A stretch of DNA of 25,710 nucleotides from a virus. The translations under genes and the position numbers were made by a program. The notes under the pieces were generated by a model, which was given only the letters and a program-made list of their open reading frames with translations, was not told where the DNA came from and made no database searches. The stretch covers positions 1 through 25,710 of the IMG/VR virus record IMGVR_UViG_3300043410_000715; one strand, 5' to 3'. Shown here piece after piece: positions 4,175 to 15,996 of the stretch (its first letter is position 1; every line of letters begins with the position of its first letter).

Positions 4175-4440
4175 TTGACGGGGCTTCGGCCCCTCCAAGC
4201 ATCATGCTAAGATACTCCCTGCTCAATGCTGTTAACATTCGTAGGCGTTTTGACCCTGCTAGTGAACAGGACGTGCTAGAGTTGAAACATTACTTGGACA
4301 CTAATCAATGGACAGGTCCTTGTCCCTTTTATCTTGAAGATGATTGGGACAATATCCCTGTCATGTGTATGCACAAATATGCTAGACACATGTTATCAAG
4401 TAAGAAAACAACAAAGCAAAAAACAAAAAGCCCCAAGTAA
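4171..4440 (+). CDS. Conserved small phage protein, last gene of the plus block
   Basis: The frame gives 89 residues from the overlapping ATG at 4171. A second in-frame ATG at 4204 would give a product starting MLRYSLLNAVNIRRRFDP, which looks like the true folded start because the first 11 codons coincide with a stable hairpin (4180-4193). The core contains a helix (LELKHYLDTNQWTGPCPFYL), a Pro-rich turn, and a C-terminal helix with a basic tail. Two Cys residues are present with no clear metal site. The stop at 4438-4440 lies within the terminator loop. Start choice is uncertain and the function unknown. Confidence 0.65.
   Translation: MIDGASAPPSIMLRYSLLNAVNIRRRFDPASEQDVLELKHYLDTNQWTGPCPFYLEDDWDNIPVMCMHKYARHMLSSKKTTKQKTKSPK
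4180..4193 (+). other. GC-rich hairpin with cUUCGg tetraloop
   Basis: GGGGC (4180-4184), TTCG (4185-4188) and GCCCC (4189-4193) form a very stable small hairpin. It lies directly after the stop of the gene at 3806 and within the first codons of the frame at 4171. No T-run follows, so it is not a classical terminator. It may stabilise the 3' end of the upstream message or tune translation of the next gene. Confidence 0.65.
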
Positions 4441-4453
4441 AGGGGCTTTTTTT
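4425..4453. terminator. Bidirectional rho-independent terminator
   Basis: GCCCC (4430-4434) pairs with GGGGC (4442-4446) around a 7-nt loop. Seven T residues follow on the plus strand (4447-4453) and five A residues precede (4425-4429), giving a U-run for minus-strand transcripts as well. It separates the convergent gene blocks; stop codons of both flanking genes lie within it. Confidence 0.9.
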
Positions 4454-5297
4454 ATGGGTTCGTTACCGACTTTATAATCCAGAAATCACCGGACATACCT
4501 GTGTTTTGAATCACTTGAAACGGCATATAGAAATAACCGTTGTCACCCCATGTTGGTCCCCAACTGTTACGTGCGATATAAACTTGCCTAGTCTTATCGT
4601 ATCCTACAAGTAATACCGCATGACCACCTAATAGTCGTTCACGTTTTGTGTTAGGATAGGGCATTACACCTGTCCTGGACACTTGCGGCGCACCGAAACT
4701 ATCGTAAACATAGAAGCCAATTACAACAGGGTATCCATTGTTCAATGCGTCTAAACAACCATTGTGATTTTCTATTCTTTCGTATAATGTTACTTTGCGA
4801 GTTAATCCATCATTGATTGCATTTGGACTTGGTCTTTGTCTAAATTTTTGTATGTCATACGGCCAAAACTTTTCTAATGGAGCACCCTGTTTGTTAGTTA
4901 CTTTTATTCCGTCTCTGATGTACGCACCTGAATCATAATTAATTGTATTGAGTAAAGCACGTTCATAATAATAAATGAACAGTCTGCTTACATCAGTTTG
5001 TTTTCCGTTGCGTTTGTTCAATAGTTCGATAGCACCTGCAATTGCTTGACCAGTACAACTGCCTAAGTTGCCTTGGTCTTCTATCAAACTACAATACGGA
5101 CGCAAATCAACAACATTTGATTGTGCTTTGTTTGACACAGAATATTTGTAATCACGGTTATCTACTTTGTCGGGCCTCCAATGATATTTAGGAATACGCA
5201 TTGGTGGTTTAGGTATAGATACAACTGTCCTAATCGGTGTTCTATGTAAACCCGGATCTTGACTGATATCAATTATTGTTCTTACGTCTTGTTTCAT
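4452..5297 (-). CDS. Papain-like (C1A family) cysteine peptidase
   Basis: This 281-residue protein has the full papain-type active site. Gln75 (oxyanion hole) and Cys81 lie in EDQGNLGSCTGQAIAGA, His226 in LLGGHAVLLVGYD, and Asn244 in ARNSWGPTWGDNGYF. Residues about 1-60 form a short Pro-rich leader with PDKVDNRDYKYS, typical of the C1A-like subgroup in bacteria and phages. There is no signal peptide or membrane segment. The start overlaps the stop of the LamG gene by four bases, so it is the last gene of the tail-fibre operon. It may process or release fibres or digest host surface protein; both are inference. The catalytic set is intact, so the enzyme is probably active. Confidence 0.88.
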   Translation of the reverse strand: MKQDVRTIIDISQDPGLHRTPIRTVVSIPKPPMRIPKYHWRPDKVDNRDYKYSVSNKAQSNVVDLRPYCSLIEDQGNLGSCTGQAIAGAIELLNKRNGKQTDVSRLFIYYYERALLNTINYDSGAYIRDGIKVTNKQGAPLEKFWPYDIQKFRQRPSPNAINDGLTRKVTLYERIENHNGCLDALNNGYPVVIGFYVYDSFGAPQVSRTGVMPYPNTKRERLLGGHAVLLVGYDKTRQVYIARNSWGPTWGDNGYFYMPFQVIQNTGMSGDFWIIKSVTNP

Positions 5298-6043: not shown

Positions 6044-6071
6044 TGTTTATCCTATTTTCTATTTACCATCA

Positions 6072-9000
6072 TTATGAAGTTGGTGCCTTCATAATGAAGA
6101 ACTTCACAACAGGTGCGCTACTAATAGTATCTAATGCTCTGACATTTATATAGAAAGAAGTACCAGTAAAATAATAAGCACTTACCATAAAATACGTAGA
6201 GTATGTACCAGAAATTTGCGCTAAGATATAATCATCGGCACTAACCTTATTACATTGAACTACGAATGCTTCAAGGTCATTTGCAGTCCAAGAACTCTTT
6301 GCTAGAGTGATTTGTCCAGTTAGTTGATTTAATGTAACACCTTGACCTGTACCAGTCTGTGTAACAGTACCACCACTAGAATAACCAATTTTGCCTGTAG
6401 CAGTAATATTACCTGCAGTAGCAAAGTCACCGCTGGTATTCAAGTTGGCTAGAGTAGTTCCTGGTTTGTAAAATCTTAATGTTCCGCCGTCATTGTCAAT
6501 TTCAAGTGTTTGTGCTGTGGTCCCTGTTCCAAACATTATTCGGGGTGTACCACCAGCATAGCCTAGATATAAACCAGCAGTTGAAGCCTGTGATTCATCA
6601 AATGCACCAGTAAATCTAGCATAGCCATTGCCTAATACATTAGCTGAAGCAATTAAGTTGCCACTGCTGATGTTGCCCGTGGTGCTCACAGTGTTGCTAC
6701 CATACGCAGCCAAGAATGTAGCTACATTAGAATCACCATATGATGATGTTGCTACAATGCCAGTCAACTGAGAACCATTACCAATAAAATAGTTACCTGT
6801 GACATTGCCTGTAGCACTAAAAACATTAGCAGTTATAACATTGGCACCTGAAATGTTACCACCTGTACCAGTAGAAGTAACAATACTACCCGGTGCAGTT
6901 AAGTTACCGTCATTACCGAATACCCAACTACTTGCTCCTGCATTAATGTTTACATTACCATATTCTGCTAGACCGTTACCCGCGCCGCCACCTGTAATAT
7001 TAACATTACCACCACTGCCACCACCGTAACCACCTTTAAGTTCCGCAATGCCACCGGCTACACTACCTTGGCCGCCTTGAACATTAGCAGTTCCGCCTGT
7101 TGTAGCACCGATGCCGCCTATTAATCTTACTTCAGCACCTGCACTATTGGTACTACGACCACCGGTAATACTAACATCACCGCCACCATCAAATCCTTGA
7201 CCACCTGTAATGTTTATGTAACCACCATAACCAGATCCTCCATCAGCATCACCTGCGTAGATTTTGATATCACCGCCGTTAACATCACTGTCACCGGCCC
7301 ATACATAAACATCGCCACCTTCTCCGCCAGACTGACCAGCCTGACCTTGAATGATTAATCGTTGTGCGTTATAGCCAGACGGTGGGGTAGGTCCAGTGAT
7401 AACTGCCTGATAGTCAATATCACCAAACTGTAATGTTCGTGCTGTTTGACTGCCGCCATTGTGTAAGTTTACAGTTAGTACTGGGAATAACATGCTACCG
7501 TCATTGTTGTATGACCAAGTATAGTTTGTAGTATGGTCACTGGCTTGTGTGTTTAATGTAATGTTACCACTACCATAATCAACACCACCAGTACCTGCTG
7601 TAATAACAACCCCTCCGCCTACGTAGGATCCAGTGGTGTAGCCTGCTGTAATAACAACATTACCACCTTCACGACCTAAATTAATATCACTAGCATTATC
7701 GCCTGCATTGCCGGCTTGTAGTACTACTGAACCACCGTTACCTGCATTTTGCTCGCCTCCGGCGTTAGCACTACCACCAGGAGCACCAGTGATATATACT
7801 GTACCACCGTTACCAGCACCATATATATTACTTGCATACCCACCTTGACCACCATTGATATTAATATCGCCACCATTACCAGCTGGATCTTGAGTATCTG
7901 CACTTCCGCCGTTGCCGGCGTTTATGTCAATTTGACCACCGGTATTATCTGATGTTGTTTTGTCTCCTGCATTCAAGACGATATCATCACCTGCATTAAT
8001 GCGTACATCACCTTGATAGCCACTAGTAATGTTTACAGGCCAACCACTGAAACTTTGTAAGTTTAATTGATTACCATCATCGTCCAACTCCATGACATTT
8101 CGCATCACAGCGTATAGTGTCATTGTAGTAACTGTTACTGAATCTCCTGGACTTTGAACTACATATATAGTAAATGTATCACCATTATATTCAAATCCAT
8201 TATATATTAATTCAGTTGATGAATCGTTGATTGTCAATACAGCAGTACCTGTATTTGCGTACTGCATGTATAACTGTACAAATCTTCTTAGACTACTATA
8301 CGCACCAACTATATCTATTCTACCAGTGCCACTATTGTCTGAGTATGTTGCTGTATTCCATGCACCAGTGAATGTTTGGTCAACTGGAACATTTATTACA
8401 TTGGTTAGTTTGCTGCCCGCACCAGCTTCAACTGCTAAACCATTACCACCTATAATTGACGCAGTACTATGTGTGGCAACTATATTGCCATCATCATAGA
8501 TAGTCCATTGACGATTAGGATTGCCTAGAGTAAGAACACCGGCACCTACTACTAAGTTATCATATGTTACTGATACAATACTACCGCCACCTATATAAGG
8601 AAGCCATGTTGTACCGTTAGCCGGTGTTGTAAATTCACTATCTGTGTATAGTTGTATTTCATTTACTTCTACAGCTTGGAACCACCATGTTTGATTAGCC
8701 TCTACTGTTCCTAACACACCAGATATAGCAACCTTTCCAGTTACTGGACCGGGGAAAGTTGTTGAGTTTAATGTTACAACTACTGTAGTGCTTCCAGTAG
8801 TTATATTACTGATAGTATCATTTAATGCGAAACCTCCAGTAGCCACAGCATTGATGTTGCCGGGAACTGTTAGATTACCATCAGTACCAAATGACCATGT
8901 GTTATTACTTGATACTAGATTCAATGCTTCAGGTATAGCACCGATAGCAAACTGGCTTATAGCCGCCTTAGTTCCGTCACCATCAGAACCTGTGTTACCA

Positions 9001-12000
9001 GCATATGAAACAATTGACGCAGTGCCATCTAAACATACCATTGAGAAGATACCATTGCCGTTACTACCAACCATAGTACCATAAGTGCCAGCGCCCCAGT
9101 TCTCACCATTGCCAGTTACAGTTTCGCCAACACCATAATACATACCATAAGCAGTATATGTAGTTGATGGTAGATTACTACCAATAGTATCATATCCACC
9201 CGTTACATAAGTTCCCGTACCACCTTCTGTTGCACCATCTGTCTGCCACATCACCATTGGGTATGTCTGATTAGTTGGTTCATAGAAAGTCATGAATGGA
9301 TATAGACCACCTGAATCTACGCTAGTTACTATTAGATTACTATCAGCATCAGTATACGCAGTGAATACACAACGAGAAACATCTGTACCTAAGAAGTTAC
9401 CTTGGTCTTGTATATCGCTTGTACCGTCATAGATATAACGCTTTACAAAATTTTGTTCATAACTTGCTTGGCTCATTGTGCCTGTTACTGAGAAGTCAGT
9501 AATACCACCAGAACCGTTAATTGCACCGACTGTAATAGTCATGTTATCAGCAGGTGCCGCGCCACCTAATTCAGTACCCGGTACTGTGATAGTGTCACCT
9601 ACCTGATATCCTGTTCCAGGTACCACACAATCAGCAGAATTCCATTCAGCAGTGTTATAATCTATTGCACCAATTGGATCGTCTAAGTCAAAGAAGAATA
9701 CAGCATCAGTACCACTACCTGTGTGTGTGAAACTGTTGACTTGGAATATGGCTTGTATGCCATTGAAGTTCATGTTGTCTACGATTGTGCCAGGAGCGAA
9801 ATTCTCTTCCAACAATGATACTTCATTGGTAGCAAACGCAGTTTGAATATCACTGATTGATGTGCGTTGTGTATCTCCGTTATACAAGACTACATCAATA
9901 TAGTTTCTTATGAAATAGAATATACTTTCTGTATCAAGTGGAGTTGAAGTACTAGTGCCATACAAATTAACAATCGCAGTGATGTTTGAACCGTCGATGC
10001 CTGTTACAATAAAGTTGTCATCGTCCGTGTCAGTTGTTGGGTTTGAGCCACTGATATCTGAACTTCTTGACAATACAATCTGATTGATAGATGGATCGTC
10101 ACCTGATATCTGATTTAATACAGCATAGAATCCACGATATGCAAAACTGCCTATTGATTTGATAACACCTGGTACTGTGAATGAACCGTCGCTATCAAAT
10201 CTCCATCGTTGTGAACTACTTGCCCAAATATCAACTGGCTTACTAGCAGTAGTACCTAAACGAACACCACCTTCAGAACCAGGCTCAATATCAAACTGTA
10301 CATCTAAGTTGATAAAGCCACTCTCGTTGTTAGAAAGAATCTGTCCTGTACTAGTAGTGTTAGCACTACCTGCTGGTATAATTAATGCACCATATCTATC
10401 AAATCTTAAACTAGCATTTACAGCATTTGCGTTATTGTTTTGATTTAATCCAACATAAAGACCACCGTCATTCAAGAATAATGTATTGCGTAATACATCG
10501 CTGTTATCAAACACATTACCAACATCACTGGCGTCTGACCAATCTAATTCAGGACCACCGTGTTCTGGATCTGATCCATATGACAATAATGTTGTATAGC
10601 CGTTGTTAGTTAATAAACGACCATAACCACCTGATGCGTAAGCACCACCTGGCATTTGTATATCACCAGTAGGTGTAAAGTGGAATATGCTATCACCTGT
10701 GCGAATGTCTACAGTATCACCTTTTAATTCTAAGTCGTTGTATTCTGGTGAGTAAGCAAACCCGCCAGTAGTGTATGCAGTCCAATCTGTACCAGATGTT
10801 GGTATAGTACAAGCCGCATCATTAAATAATTGGAACGCATTCACCTCCACTGCTCTATAGTATCTTGTACCATTCGCTTGTGTAGCACCTGTAACTCCTG
10901 TAATTGTTACTCGTCCAGTTACTGCATCAGAGAATGGACTACTATCAAGAGTAACGATAACAGTCGGGTCACCTGTAGTTATATATGTAATAGCACCGCC
11001 GAACGGGAAGCCACCACTTAGTGAACTAGTGATACTTCCAGGGACTACTAAATTGCCACTAGTGTCAAGTACCATTGGATGTGCATTAGTACCGTCATAT
11101 GATGACATGATGATATTACCAGTACTGCTCACTTGAACATACTTGTTGTCATCGCCAAAGTATTGGTCGTAAGAAGTATTGTCACCTGTGTCAAAGTGAA
11201 TGTGACTATCAACATCACCTGCACGAACTTGTAGATATTTCAAGTTAGCAGTATCATCTGGAGATGGAGACAATTGTAAACCAAACCCAGATACACCTTG
11301 AACTGCTACATTATCAAATGTTACATTGCCTGTGTTTCCACTTCCACCAGCAGACCAGCTTAAATTACCAGTGCCATCTGTAGTCAACACTTGACCATCC
11401 ATACCTGCATCTGCTGGTAAGTTCAATGAGTAGTTACCTGTTGCGCCGCTACCAGTAATTGTTGCAGTGTATAATCCATTCAAGAAATTAAACTTAGTTC
11501 CTGTAACTTGATTAGTTAGAATGTTACCTGAACTTGCATTGACAGCAGTTCCAGTACCAGTAGCATACAATGTGCCGCCTCTAATAGTACCAGTAGCAGT
11601 AACTAATCCATTAGTAACTATATTACCTCCAATGACATTTCCAGTAGCTGAAACATTACCAGCAGAATTGATATTACCCCCACCTACATTGCCTGTCGCT
11701 GTAACCGTACCAGCAGTACCGATATTACCTATATTAGCATTGCCTGCAACAGATATATTGCCCGGAGTTGTCAAATTGCCTGTGTTGTCAAAAATAAAAT
11801 TCTTCAATGAACCTGAGTTGACACCGGTAGTGATTTGAACATTACCGTATGTATTGGTTACTTGAGCAGGAACTGTTGTGTTACCGTTACTAGGCAACAC
11901 AAGTGCGGCTGTTGCGCCGTGTGTTAAGTCAGCGTTTTCAACAACAACACCATTCAAATGATATACTTCTGCTGTATCTACTTTTGCAACTGCTAATGCA

Positions 12001-12479
12001 CCTGCAGTTTTATTAAATGTGAAGCCTGTGTTACCACCGAATGAACCTGCATCGTTAAATTGAATTTGAGTGTTAGAACCACCAGGACTACCGTTTCCAC
12101 CTCCACCACCTGTTTGTGCAGTCCAACTTAAATTACCTGCACCGTCTGTTTGTAGAACATAACCATTAGTACCACCTTGAATGCTAACATCAGATACATC
12201 AGGTAAAACTGTAGTACCAGTGACAGTCAATCCTGTTAATGTACCAACACTTGTAATGTTAGGTTGTGCGGCATTGGCGACACTATATGCTATAGTTGAA
12301 ACGAATGCTGGTGGTAAAGTGTTACCTGCTTGTAACAAAGTAAAGTTAGCAATGTTACCTACTGCTACTTTGTCTGTTGTTGCAGTTCCTGTTGTATTAA
12401 CTACAGGAAGAATTGTACTTGCAGATAATCCATTACCGATGCTTGGCAGTTGTGTTATTTTAATTGTTGCGTTTGCCAT
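6072..12479 (-). CDS. Giant repetitive tail fibre/adhesin (2135 aa)
   Basis: The conserved N-terminus (ITQLPSIGNGLSASTILPVV, residues 8-27) resembles phage fibre attachment regions. Residues about 230-310 hold 17-residue units such as SAGNVSATGNVIGGN. Motifs of the type F-x-x-D-G-N-L-T-x-P-G-x-I recur about eight times along the chain. Two similar segments (about 488-575 and 1217-1298; VTGRVTITGVTGATQANGT and VTGKVAISGVLGTVEANQT) look like FCCH-type beta domains. Two Gly-rich blocks (about 1478-1641 and 1705-1852) repeat units like GGDININGGQGG. The C-terminus (about 2045-2135; GQGVTLNQLTGQITLAKSSW) is a typical fibre-tip domain. It is very likely a trimeric host-recognition fibre. AGGAAAT precedes the start, 13 bases after the 509-aa fibre gene. 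Confidence 0.9.
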   Translation of the reverse strand: MANATIKITQLPSIGNGLSASTILPVVNTTGTATTDKVAVGNIANFTLLQAGNTLPPAFVSTIAYSVANAAQPNITSVGTLTGLTVTGTTVLPDVSDVSIQGGTNGYVLQTDGAGNLSWTAQTGGGGGNGSPGGSNTQIQFNDAGSFGGNTGFTFNKTAGALAVAKVDTAEVYHLNGVVVENADLTHGATAALVLPSNGNTTVPAQVTNTYGNVQITTGVNSGSLKNFIFDNTGNLTTPGNISVAGNANIGNIGTAGTVTATGNVGGGNINSAGNVSATGNVIGGNIVTNGLVTATGTIRGGTLYATGTGTAVNASSGNILTNQVTGTKFNFLNGLYTATITGSGATGNYSLNLPADAGMDGQVLTTDGTGNLSWSAGGSGNTGNVTFDNVAVQGVSGFGLQLSPSPDDTANLKYLQVRAGDVDSHIHFDTGDNTSYDQYFGDDNKYVQVSSTGNIIMSSYDGTNAHPMVLDTSGNLVVPGSITSSLSGGFPFGGAITYITTGDPTVIVTLDSSPFSDAVTGRVTITGVTGATQANGTRYYRAVEVNAFQLFNDAACTIPTSGTDWTAYTTGGFAYSPEYNDLELKGDTVDIRTGDSIFHFTPTGDIQMPGGAYASGGYGRLLTNNGYTTLLSYGSDPEHGGPELDWSDASDVGNVFDNSDVLRNTLFLNDGGLYVGLNQNNNANAVNASLRFDRYGALIIPAGSANTTSTGQILSNNESGFINLDVQFDIEPGSEGGVRLGTTASKPVDIWASSSQRWRFDSDGSFTVPGVIKSIGSFAYRGFYAVLNQISGDDPSINQIVLSRSSDISGSNPTTDTDDDNFIVTGIDGSNITAIVNLYGTSTSTPLDTESIFYFIRNYIDVVLYNGDTQRTSISDIQTAFATNEVSLLEENFAPGTIVDNMNFNGIQAIFQVNSFTHTGSGTDAVFFFDLDDPIGAIDYNTAEWNSADCVVPGTGYQVGDTITVPGTELGGAAPADNMTITVGAINGSGGITDFSVTGTMSQASYEQNFVKRYIYDGTSDIQDQGNFLGTDVSRCVFTAYTDADSNLIVTSVDSGGLYPFMTFYEPTNQTYPMVMWQTDGATEGGTGTYVTGGYDTIGSNLPSTTYTAYGMYYGVGETVTGNGENWGAGTYGTMVGSNGNGIFSMVCLDGTASIVSYAGNTGSDGDGTKAAISQFAIGAIPEALNLVSSNNTWSFGTDGNLTVPGNINAVATGGFALNDTISNITTGSTTVVVTLNSTTFPGPVTGKVAISGVLGTVEANQTWWFQAVEVNEIQLYTDSEFTTPANGTTWLPYIGGGSIVSVTYDNLVVGAGVLTLGNPNRQWTIYDDGNIVATHSTASIIGGNGLAVEAGAGSKLTNVINVPVDQTFTGAWNTATYSDNSGTGRIDIVGAYSSLRRFVQLYMQYANTGTAVLTINDSSTELIYNGFEYNGDTFTIYVVQSPGDSVTVTTMTLYAVMRNVMELDDDGNQLNLQSFSGWPVNITSGYQGDVRINAGDDIVLNAGDKTTSDNTGGQIDINAGNGGSADTQDPAGNGGDININGGQGGYASNIYGAGNGGTVYITGAPGGSANAGGEQNAGNGGSVVLQAGNAGDNASDINLGREGGNVVITAGYTTGSYVGGGVVITAGTGGVDYGSGNITLNTQASDHTTNYTWSYNNDGSMLFPVLTVNLHNGGSQTARTLQFGDIDYQAVITGPTPPSGYNAQRLIIQGQAGQSGGEGGDVYVWAGDSDVNGGDIKIYAGDADGGSGYGGYINITGGQGFDGGGDVSITGGRSTNSAGAEVRLIGGIGATTGGTANVQGGQGSVAGGIAELKGGYGGGSGGNVNITGGGAGNGLAEYGNVNINAGASSWVFGNDGNLTAPGSIVTSTGTGGNISGANVITANVFSATGNVTGNYFIGNGSQLTGIVATSSYGDSNVATFLAAYGSNTVSTTGNISSGNLIASANVLGNGYARFTGAFDESQASTAGLYLGYAGGTPRIMFGTGTTAQTLEIDNDGGTLRFYKPGTTLANLNTSGDFATAGNITATGKIGYSSGGTVTQTGTGQGVTLNQLTGQITLAKSSWTANDLEAFVVQCNKVSADDYILAQISGTYSTYFMVSAYYFTGTSFYINVRALDTISSAPVVKFFIMKAPTS

Positions 12480-12492
12480 TTATATTTCCTAA

Positions 12493-14022
12493 TTATGCGA
12501 ATGTCGCTCCGTTGTTGCCAATGCAGAACCATTTGCCATTAACATACTGTAATGTGCATGATTGTCCCACTGCTGAAAATGTGATTGTTCCTGTTCCACT
12601 TGCTTTCCAGCCTGCGTTAGTAACAGTGATTACCATATTGCCACCGTGTGCAACTGTCATAAATGTTTTGATTTGACCTTCTGTGCCTGCGGCTAATGTT
12701 CCCGTCCATGCACCTGTTGTGCTGAAATAACTTGGTACTACTGTTAAACTCGCCGCTGCCCCGTTTGTCATGTCATCTGAACCACTAGCAATTACTTTAC
12801 CGGCTGTTACTAAATTACCACCGATGACGTTACCAGTTGAAGTTACAATACCAGCAGTAGTTAAGTTACCACCGATGACGTTACCAGTTGAAGTTACAAT
12901 ACCAGCAGTAGTTAAGTTACCACCGATGACGTTACCAGTAGATGATACAATTCCTGCAGTTTTTAAATTACCACCTTGAATGTTACCAGTAGCAGTGATT
13001 ATACCTGCTGTGCCGATGTTACCAATGTTAGCGTTACCAGATACACTCAATGTACCTGAAATGTTTGACCCAGTACCAGTGACTGTCAATATGTTTGCAT
13101 TACCAGCACTACTGATAGTTACGTTACCACTAGCACCGATAATGTCAACGTTACTGGTGCCATTAGCAATAGATGACACAGTGATATCACCCGCTGATAA
13201 ATTACCAGTAACAGTTAAATTACCTATTGTAACGTTGCCAGGCAACGTTGGGTTTGTTGGGATTTCAACACTGATTGTACCAGTTGTTGTGATTGGGCTA
13301 TTTGTGACGTTTAATGTTGAACTAGATATTCCGATACTAGTTACGGTTCCACCTAACGTAACTGTAGAAACAGTGATGTTACCGTTACTTGAACTTAAAC
13401 TGATACCAGATCCAGCATTCAATCTAGTAACACCAGTGTTAATAATATTAATATTACCGTTGCCAGTGATAGGGCTTCCTGAAATCTGTAGTCCAGGGCC
13501 ACTAGTAGTCACGCCCACGCTAGTGACTGTACCTAATGTTGCACCATTTGCAATATTAGTGATTCTACCATATCCATCAACAGTGATGCTTGGGTATGAA
13601 TATGAACCCTGTACGTTAGCAATTGCTGGTAAGTTGAGTGTTATATTCCCTGCACTAACAATAGGAGATCCAGATACTGTTAATGTACCTGATAACACGC
13701 CTACACTAGTAACTGTGCCACCGCTACCATTACCACCACCTGTACTTGAAATTGTAACGTTTCCGTTAGCTTGGTCAACAATGATACCAGTACCAGCTAT
13801 GATGCTAGTTACACCGGTGTTTGTTATATCAACTGTTCCCGCTACAGCATTTGATGATGTTGAAATACCAGTATTACCAGTAAATGTAACGAATGGACTG
13901 GCTGTGCTGAAAAGCGTTGAAAAGTTGTTTTTTGTCTTAGCAAATGCTACATACAACGAATCACTGTTTGCGGATTCGTTTGGTAAGCCAATTCTAATTA
14001 ATTCTTGCCCAGAAATTGCCAT
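12493..14022 (-). CDS. Repetitive tail fibre/structural protein (509 aa)
   Basis: The N-terminus (ELIRIGLPNESANSDSLYVA, residues 7-26) resembles fibre or baseplate-attachment domains, followed by low-complexity Gly/Ser/Thr/Val repeats. Three copies of a GTVTSVGV...SGSPI...G segment begin near residues 103, 167 and 225. Four 17-residue units of the type GNVIGGNLTTAGIVTST lie at about 343-413, and a C-terminal domain ends with QYVNGKWFCIGNNGATFA. The protein is a plausible partner or proximal segment of the 2135-aa fibre, with which it shares a SGNANIGNIGTAG stretch. Its ribosome-binding site (AAGGA) is inside the 3' arm of a perfect hairpin that carries a late-promoter motif. Confidence 0.88.
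   Translation of the reverse strand: MAISGQELIRIGLPNESANSDSLYVAFAKTKNNFSTLFSTASPFVTFTGNTGISTSSNAVAGTVDITNTGVTSIIAGTGIIVDQANGNVTISSTGGGNGSGGTVTSVGVLSGTLTVSGSPIVSAGNITLNLPAIANVQGSYSYPSITVDGYGRITNIANGATLGTVTSVGVTTSGPGLQISGSPITGNGNINIINTGVTRLNAGSGISLSSSNGNITVSTVTLGGTVTSIGISSSTLNVTNSPITTTGTISVEIPTNPTLPGNVTIGNLTVTGNLSAGDITVSSIANGTSNVDIIGASGNVTISSAGNANILTVTGTGSNISGTLSVSGNANIGNIGTAGIITATGNIQGGNLKTAGIVSSTGNVIGGNLTTAGIVTSTGNVIGGNLTTAGIVTSTGNVIGGNLVTAGKVIASGSDDMTNGAAASLTVVPSYFSTTGAWTGTLAAGTEGQIKTFMTVAHGGNMVITVTNAGWKASGTGTITFSAVGQSCTLQYVNGKWFCIGNNGATFA
12799..12985 (-). repeat. Tandem 51-bp repeats within the 509-aa fibre gene
   Basis: About four units of 51 bp (17 codons) lie in tandem. The units at 12850-12900 and from 12901 agree exactly over their first 40 bases, and the segment before 12850 matches the next with one or two changes. 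The outer units are more diverged. The repeats keep the reading frame, so gain or loss of a unit would change fibre length without breaking it. Confidence 0.85.
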
Positions 14023-14030
14023 AATTTAAT

Positions 14031-14055
14031 CCTTATTGAGTATTTATCAATAAGG
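14031..14055 (-). promoter_or_regulatory. Late-promoter motif inside an RBS-sequestering hairpin
   Basis: A perfect 9-bp inverted repeat (14031-14039 with 14047-14055) flanks a 7-nt loop. On the minus strand, GATAAATACT (14048-14039) matches nine of ten bases of the extended T4 late-promoter form TATAAATACT. The 3' arm ends AATAAGG and is followed by A, so the AAGGA ribosome-binding site of the fibre gene (ATG 14022) is mostly paired. Transcripts starting about 6-7 bases after the motif would lack the 5' arm. Confidence 0.7.
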
Positions 14056-14073
14056 ACTAAATGGTCTGGGCTG

Positions 14074-14400
14074 TTACACGCTGAAACTACTCCCGCAACC
14101 GCAGGTACTTGATGCTTGTGGGTTTTTGATACTGAATCTCGACCCACTCAAATCGTCTATAAAATCAATTTCAGCACCGTTTACATACTGTGCTGACATA
14201 CTATCAACTAGTACACTTGTGGATCCTGCGGAGACCTCAAAATCATCTTCATTTTGTTCTTCGTCTAGTGTAAATCCATAACTAAAGCCAGCGCATCCGC
14301 CACCTTGAATGAACATTCGTAGTCGTAGATTTGGGTTGTTTTCTTCCGCTAATACGTCGGCTATTTTTTGTTGTGCTGATTCGGTTATTGTTAGATTCAT
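14074..14400 (-). CDS. erpA: A-type iron-sulfur carrier protein, ErpA-like
   Basis: This 108-residue protein matches the HesB/IscA/ErpA family along its full length. Residues 1-20 resemble the family N-terminus, Cys36 lies in IQGGGCAGFSYGF, and Cys100 and Cys102 lie in the C-terminal STCGCGSSFSV. The long GGGC-x-G-F-x-Y-G-F block and the CGCGSSFS ending are closer to ErpA than to IscA. A-type carriers accept [2Fe-2S] or [4Fe-4S] clusters from the scaffold and pass them to apo-proteins in the cytoplasm. All three cluster ligands are intact. The gene sits between SGNH-like genes and the fibre genes and has its own late-promoter-like motif at 14420-14427 and AGGA ribosome-binding site. Confidence 0.93.
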   Translation of the reverse strand: MNLTITESAQQKIADVLAEENNPNLRLRMFIQGGGCAGFSYGFTLDEEQNEDDFEVSAGSTSVLVDSMSAQYVNGAEIDFIDDLSGSRFSIKNPQASSTCGCGSSFSV

Positions 14401-14419
14401 AATGTTTTCCTATATTTGA

Positions 14420-14427
14420 TATTTATT
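14420..14427 (-). promoter_or_regulatory. T4-like late promoter motif upstream of erpA
   Basis: On the minus strand AATAAATA (14427-14420) differs from the T4 late consensus TATAAATA by one base. It lies 19 bases before the erpA ATG, nearly the same distance as the motif before the 509-aa fibre gene (18 bases). It overlaps the stop codon of the upstream SGNH gene, so part of the match could reflect coding. Confidence 0.5.
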
Positions 14428-15160
14428 GCTGTAGTCGTTCTAAGATTGCTTTTGCAAAAGTAGAATTGGAATTGATTCCTGCATGACTCAAATCTCTCGC
14501 TTTATCTATCGTTCGCATTGTAAAATTTTCCATATCGTATGGGACTTGCCCGCTGATATTACATGTTATAAGTCTAGTTTGTGATTCTACTACAGTACGT
14601 ATTAAATCAACTGTAAATTTTACCCGAGCATTAAAAAATCCGGATAAATCGCCGCTTGCAATAAATTTCATTTTATCTGGATCTTTTTCCCAAGACCCGC
14701 TAGTTATACCGTGTTTAAATTCATCATTGTATGTTATATATCTACTGCAATCGGGCCATTGTATGAATACAATTTTAGGTTTCTTTTTTACTTTAGCGAA
14801 CCAGGTTAATAAGTTATATTCTAGTACATCTATACCCGTAGCGGGCATTGCTAAATTGTAATAATCACAATTTAATTGCTGACTTACTAAGTAAGGGTAT
14901 GTTTTTTCTAATTCTATTCCAACACCAGATGTATGACTACATCCAGTGAATAATACATAATTGTCTAAATCTATATCCTGCAAATCTTTTGACCTATGAC
15001 CGTAGCTGTTATAAGCATATTCAATTGGTTTGTTAATATAATACCAATCCGGTGGCTGTGATTTTTTGTTTTTTTCAAACTGTTCTTCACTATCCTCACC
15101 TGCAAACATCATTTGAATATTGGCGAAATCTTCTCCTAGGAAATCTTCATAAAATTTCAT
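14423..15160 (-). CDS. SGNH/GDSL-hydrolase-like protein
   Basis: This 245-residue protein has the SGNH layout. The block I nucleophile is Ser75 in LFTGCSHTSGVG, preceded by NSYGHRSKDLQDIDLDNYV. Next come a strand with YYNLAMPATGIDVLEYN (block II/III-like Gly and Asn) and PKIVFIQWP. Block V is Asp223-x-x-His226 in RDLSHAGIN. Members hydrolyse acyl esters, often acetyl groups on polysaccharides. There is no signal peptide, so it acts in the infected cell or in the virion. It is paralogous to the next upstream gene, which it overlaps by four bases. A strong GAGGA ribosome-binding site precedes the ATG. Confidence 0.8.
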   Translation of the reverse strand: MKFYEDFLGEDFANIQMMFAGEDSEEQFEKNKKSQPPDWYYINKPIEYAYNSYGHRSKDLQDIDLDNYVLFTGCSHTSGVGIELEKTYPYLVSQQLNCDYYNLAMPATGIDVLEYNLLTWFAKVKKKPKIVFIQWPDCSRYITYNDEFKHGITSGSWEKDPDKMKFIASGDLSGFFNARVKFTVDLIRTVVESQTRLITCNISGQVPYDMENFTMRTIDKARDLSHAGINSNSTFAKAILERLQQ

Positions 15161-15780: not shown

Positions 15781-15996
15781 TTATCTACGCCTTACAATTC
15801 GTCCTTTTGTCAGGTCGTATGGACTAAATTCGACTTCTACTGTGTCACCTAATAGAATTTTAATATCATGTTGACGCATTTTTCCTGAGATATAACCCAT
15901 TACAGTTTGACCTGCATTTAGTGTTACTCTGAAGGTGGCGTTGGGTAACACTTCAACTACTTTGCCATCCATCTTAATGCCTTCTTCTTTTGCCAT
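15781..15996 (-). CDS. infA: Translation initiation factor IF-1
   Basis: This 71-residue protein matches bacterial IF-1 over its whole length. It starts [20 protein letters not shown], has [20 protein letters not shown] in the middle, and ends GDTVEVEF...[15 protein letters not shown]-1 is an OB-fold protein that binds the 30S A site with IF-2 and IF-3 during initiation. The key basic residues and the PYDL-x-KGRI ending are all kept, so it should be functional. It lies in a run of minus-strand phage genes. AAGGAG (16016-16011) overlaps the stop of the upstream gene and sits an unusually long 14 bases before the ATG. Confidence 0.95.

Follow-up and report, generated by a model that had tools for sequence, protein, structure and literature searches.

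In an uncultured virus, we find that a gene for a tail-fibre-like protein has its start region enclosed by an RNA hairpin that carries a late promoter motif across its loop and the complete ribosome-binding site (RBS) in its 3′ arm, and we consider it likely that this element works as a cis-acting timing switch of the T4 gene e type. This reading rests on the sequence, the computed fold, comparative support, the gene specificity of the hairpin and the position of the motif, and it predicts a transcript start, its dependence on a late sigma factor, a translation block and the timing of expression. The DNA analysed here (the window, 25,710 nt) covers positions 1–25710 of an uncultured virus record of 105,319 bp, itself partial, whose DNA polymerase is nearest to those of the jumbo T4-related phages Phosso, Atu_ph07, XaC1 and K64-1 (42–48% identity); the source is probably a giant (jumbo), T4-related, uncultured phage.

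The gene in question (12493–14022, minus strand; start codon 14022–14020) encodes a protein of 509 aa that has no family match of its own and for which we found no homologue in annotated phages, while its N-terminal module is similar to proteins that carry the annotation baseplate wedge tail fibre connector. A second large, glycine-rich fibre-like ORF (2135 aa; 6072–12479, minus strand), for which a family search returned no match, follows after 13 nt and is probably co-transcribed with it; a perfect 11-bp inverted repeat, TCATTATGAAG...CTTCATAATGA (6069–6097), spans the stop codon of this ORF. Downstream of the fibre genes and of a lectin-fold (PF13385) protein lies a papain-like cysteine protease (PF00112, 3.6e-16; 4452–5297, minus strand). 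On the upstream side is an erpA-like A-type Fe–S carrier gene (14074–14400, minus strand; Pfam PF01521, 1.5e-19), and 51 bases separate its stop (14074) from the fibre-like ATG (14022). The same operon holds a phage-encoded translation initiation factor, IF-1 (PF01176, 4.4e-24; 15781–15996, minus strand), which adjoins erpA in the divergent relative L002 too.

The gap between erpA and the fibre gene holds the entire hairpin, which reads ATTTAGTCCTTATTGA-TAAATAC-TCAATAAGGATTAAAT on the minus strand (14062–14024), with the 5′ arm at 14062–14047, the loop at 14046–14040 (UAAAUAC in RNA) and the 3′ arm at 14039–14024. Its core is a stem of ten perfect pairs, TCCTTATTGA (14056–14047) with TCAATAAGGA (14039–14030), around the 7-nt DNA loop TAAATAC; as RNA, the stem extends to 16 bp, including one G–U at 14057/14029, and ends one base short of the ATG at 14022. 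The original prediction of a perfect 9-bp stem (14031–14039 with 14047–14055) thus described a real structure but fell one pair short of its core, and where it placed most of the AAGGA Shine–Dalgarno (SD) sequence in the 3′ arm, we find that the complete SD (14030–14034, minus strand) lies within that arm and the RBS is occluded. The late-type motif does run across the loop on the minus strand as predicted: GATAAATA, a predicted T4-type (gp55) late promoter element, occupies 14048–14041, with its first two bases in the closing pairs and the rest in the loop. The window contains three stems of at least 10 bp with loops of 3–10 nt, whereas dinucleotide shuffles predict 0.35, and this hairpin is the only one of the three to cover a gene start; another of them, situated between convergent genes, has the look of a terminator. 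At 4425–4451 of the window, a G+C-rich 10-bp hairpin with A and T runs on either side lies between convergent genes and is likely a bidirectional terminator. An exact 27-mer of the element is found again, at the same position, in a divergent phage contig (L002/L007) whose ErpA is 63% and whose fibre N-terminus is 67% identical.

RNA folding gives a quantitative measure of this occlusion. In the read-through RNA of the window, the modelled cost of opening the SD is 13.5–15 kcal/mol, rising to 19.8 kcal/mol for the region from the SD to the AUG; in RNA that begins at the predicted late start, and so lacks the 5′ arm, the corresponding costs are about 0.2 and 1.8 kcal/mol. The computed fold is therefore as predicted for both transcripts, with the RBS hidden in the longer one and free in the shorter one, if this starts at the predicted site. 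The hairpin mechanism of T4 gene e and I-TevI, which had been cited as precedent, is experimental and has been reviewed (PMC3014915, PMC2988022), and gene e, run as a control in the same model (AATACCTTC-TATAAATA-CTTAGGAGGTATT), has the same geometry as the window, with a cost of 9–10 kcal/mol for read-through RNA and 0.3–0.5 kcal/mol, that is, below 1, for late RNA.

The abundance of ATAAATA-like words was dropped as promoter evidence, as words one mismatch from TATAAATA are not over-represented (45 seen vs 60 expected), and we used their spacing instead. ATAAATA-to-ATG distances in the window's own record cluster at 4–6 nt and 18–19 nt, and in 413 kb of family DNA they are bimodal, with 44 of 154 sites at 4–6 nt and 67 of 154 at 16–20 nt, the latter peak being inflated by the way loci were picked; five control words in the same DNA show flat or almost flat spacing to starts. 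Across ten related records the pattern ATAAATA-n4-6-ATG occurs 168 times, compared with 36 for the reversed pattern. Because the near-distance peak puts the start no more than about 6 nt past the motif, and by analogy with T4 late promoters, we infer that the late transcript of the fibre gene begins at 14036–14034 (minus strand), 5–7 nt after GATAAATA and 3′ of the entire 5′ arm. Many genes have ATAAATA just 4–6 nt before the ATG and no SD (in the window's own record, G000, but outside the window, at 54061(+), 64831(+), 26473(−), 34053(−), 55433(−), 99251(−) and 41247(−), and others in the related records G001–G009), from which these phages are predicted to have a large class of leaderless late mRNAs.

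A homologue of the gp55-type late sigma factor is present in one relative (G008, 524 kb), where it is 41% identical to a so-annotated protein of Pseudomonas phage PA5oct relatives; none was found in the window's own 105-kb record, which is partial, or in a 335-kb relative. In the related jumbo phage CBB, a relative of T4 that has a gp55-like factor, an ATAAATA late motif has been reported before structural genes (PMC5259590), with no RBS hairpin mentioned in the excerpted part of its description. The erpA gene of the window has a late-type motif of its own, AATAAATA (14420–14427, minus strand), 19 nt before its ATG, and its SD is accessible. At two other genes, late motifs are overlapped by a 5′ arm that pairs with the SD (GATAAATACTCTATCGGAGACTATTTATGG, G000 85066–85036(−), L103; GATAAATACTCTATTAATGGAGTATTTTTCATGG, G000 104133–104100(−), L104), and L176 carries a homologue of the L104 element, GATAAATACTCCATCAAGGAGTATTTCATGGC.

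Read-through RNA has a candidate source in a consensus sigma-70 promoter, TTGACA-16-TATAAT (16724–16697, minus strand; 12/12 matches), which lies 2.7 kb upstream and heads an operon that includes IF-1 and erpA and continues into the fibre gene, with one weak terminator-like site in between, where the chance level in the scan is 2.5 on both strands. The divergent relative L002 has TTGACA...TATAAT before the same gene (about 2075, minus strand), and the promoter is the best candidate for early read-through; since a late-type motif precedes erpA itself, silencing may have to act on late read-through in addition to early. This sigma-70 promoter comes after a short inverted repeat, AAAAAGTAATACTTTTT, and the two possibly form a promoter–terminator cassette. 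Five consensus sigma-70 promoters share a near-identical spacer of the AAATCATTTTGGGC type (window 1289(+); L100 5952, 5424 and 5152(−); L101 5298(−)), a similarity that suggests a class of dedicated early promoters whose spacer is under constraint.

In the switch that we propose, RNA entering from the sigma-70 promoter or from the late promoter of erpA would fold the 16-bp hairpin and hide the fibre RBS, and little fibre protein would be made from it. At the late stage, RNA polymerase carrying a gp55-type sigma factor would initiate inside the hairpin, at about 14036–14034, and the resulting RNA, with no 5′ arm, a leader of about 12–14 nt and a free AAGGA, would be translated. The erpA stop of the window would be too far upstream for its ribosomes to open the hairpin, so that the fibre gene would be uncoupled from the operon.

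Relatives were gathered through their proteins, and a motif pattern blind to the 5′ arm supplied a few more, to give 63 distinct fibre starts. The mean cost of opening the SD over these loci is 7.5 kcal/mol for the native sequence and 0.7 kcal/mol for late-start RNA; it falls to 2.1 kcal/mol when the 5′ sequence is dinucleotide-shuffled (P = 1.6e-11) and to 5.4 kcal/mol when 5′ arms are exchanged between loci (n = 63; P = 1.6e-5). The stem conservation anticipated in relatives is upheld by this advantage of native over swapped arms, but it is not complete: 9 of the 63 loci keep the start region with a stem that is weak or absent (cost below 3 kcal/mol), so that the situation named as refuting in the original prediction does arise, in a minority of relatives, and the structure is not universal. 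A further 66 late-type starts, of genes other than fibre genes, share this motif and SD spacing but are no more structured than their shuffled versions (2.1 vs 1.7, P = 0.84), so that the hairpin is specific to the fibre gene, and a general feature of late starts is ruled out.

The position of the erpA stop codon divides the relatives and bears on the strongest competing explanation, in which the hairpin mainly ties fibre translation to the ribosomes that translate erpA and the late promoter adds a separate, second source. In 31 of 63 loci, the stop overlaps the loop (usually as TGATAAATA) and erpA codons make up the 5′ arm, such that arm conservation at these loci is not for pairing alone; a ribosome held at this stop lowers the modelled SD cost from 6.5 to 0.6 kcal/mol, and on this model ribosomes translating erpA would be expected to open the hairpin in these 31 relatives. 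More distant erpA–fibre pairs (L031, L038, L057, L059 and L063), in which stop and start almost touch and there is no hairpin, are also in keeping with translational coupling. The window and 16 other loci are wired differently, with erpA ending upstream and a 5′ arm that is non-coding. Stems in these 17 loci are stronger than in the 31 (10.3 vs 6.5 kcal/mol, P = 6e-4), and a ribosome at the erpA stop still leaves an average cost of 7.8 kcal/mol, and 13.4 kcal/mol in the window, where 11 nt lie between the end of the stop and the hairpin arm 3′ of it and a terminating ribosome consequently does not reach the core stem. In the other 15 loci, no recognised erpA end lies just upstream. We consider coupling unlikely as the hairpin's main function in this family, and read the two settings as one locus wired either coupled or uncoupled and late-only, the window being the latter. 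The silencing of erpA read-through put forward in the original prediction is thus expected for the window's version of the element and not for all relatives, given the 31 of 63 with the erpA stop in the hairpin. Somewhat more tentatively, and with slightly less than even confidence, we suggest that related viruses have moved between translational coupling and a late switch of the gene e type at this one locus, using coding sequence as the anti-SD arm, and that the strengthened non-coding arm in the window leaves the late promoter as the sole source of fibre protein.

Substitution patterns were next compared in a 54-sequence alignment against 500 shuffles. Cells changed on both sides of the stem number 28, compared with 15.2 in shuffles (0/500), and the covariation score is 0.163 vs 0.124 (0/500), two values that kinship among the relatives may inflate; pairs with two-sided change (139/500) and further pair types (298/500) show no excess over shuffles. 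A one-base slide of the register lowers pairing from 71% to 51%. A–C mismatches are depleted (z −4.5) beyond G–U pairs (z −2.4), the main register having 30 G–U and 13 A–C cells, and this asymmetry favours an RNA of minus-strand sense over a palindrome in the DNA. The DNA alternative, in which the dyad surrounds the late promoter as a repressor operator or recombination element and its folding as RNA is incidental, draws on the perfect 10-bp dyad with the promoter motif at its centre and on T4, where operators lie over late promoters and I-TevI represses its own (PMC2988022). A shared operator would hold its sequence, however, and here the arm sequences differ between loci while pairing is kept, with G–U tolerated over A–C; in addition, the core of the element is present once in the 105-kb record, which also rules out a repeated or mobile element or a dispersed cassette. 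We find this alternative very improbable.

We give equally little credence to the idea that the complementarity is unselected, a product of chance and homology in which the 3′ arm is kept as promoter-proximal and SD sequence and the 5′ arm derives from erpA codons (Phe-Ser-Pro-Tyr-stop). In some relatives, L255 and L310 among them, the 5′ arm TTTAGTCCTTATTGA does encode FSPY*, but the arm is retained where it is non-coding, at 76% identity between the 17 loci, whereas the adjacent spacer is at 25%, the random level. Furthermore, the SD remains hidden in L313 (TCCTCTGTCTAT/ATAGATAGAGGA) and L271 (opening cost 7.1), for example, by stems of unlike sequence, and swapped arms pair worse than native ones. 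Judged from these sequence comparisons, the hairpin is very likely an RNA feature under selection.

A terminator or attenuator of the erpA transcript, for which the stem–loop is suitably placed just past erpA, is next to impossible, since the stem is A+T-rich rather than G+C-rich and has no U-run, as an intrinsic terminator would, a minus-strand terminator scan gives no site at the hairpin, and Rfam covariance models, including those of the RNA thermometers FourU and ROSE, give no match up to E = 5 in 13900–14500. In the PeSL elements of T4-like phages, an early promoter is coupled to a terminator. The window's element resembles them in placing a predicted promoter and a stem–loop between genes, but its motif is of the late type and no terminator-like site coincides with the hairpin, and it is not a promoter–terminator cassette.

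The late switch that we favour has its closest parallel in T4 gene e, which encodes lysozyme and in which a late promoter (TATAAATA in the loop) lies between the arms, the SD is in the 3′ arm and late RNA lacks the 5′ arm (PMC3014915), as would hold here for a start at the predicted site. The window's element differs in lying before a fibre-like gene in another phage group, in having erpA upstream and a longer stem, and in carrying one late motif where gene e has two late promoters. Published work on T4 I-TevI, I-TevII, I-TevIII and segB, Aeh1 mobE, and also soc and 49, describes the same logic that we propose for the window, with an RBS hidden in read-through RNA and freed by an adjacent upstream late promoter (PMC2988022, PMC3014915); most of that group are homing endonucleases, whereas we found no I-TevI-like operator or endonuclease here.

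These findings would bring a tail-fibre-like gene, from a group of uncultured and probably jumbo phages, under the T4 mode of control in which an RBS-hiding hairpin encloses a late promoter. The roughly 60 natural variants of the element provide a means to test how the timing of a virion protein depends on stem strength, promoter position and an upstream stop codon, and the comparative approach offers a route to locate the starts of late transcripts in phages that resist cultivation.
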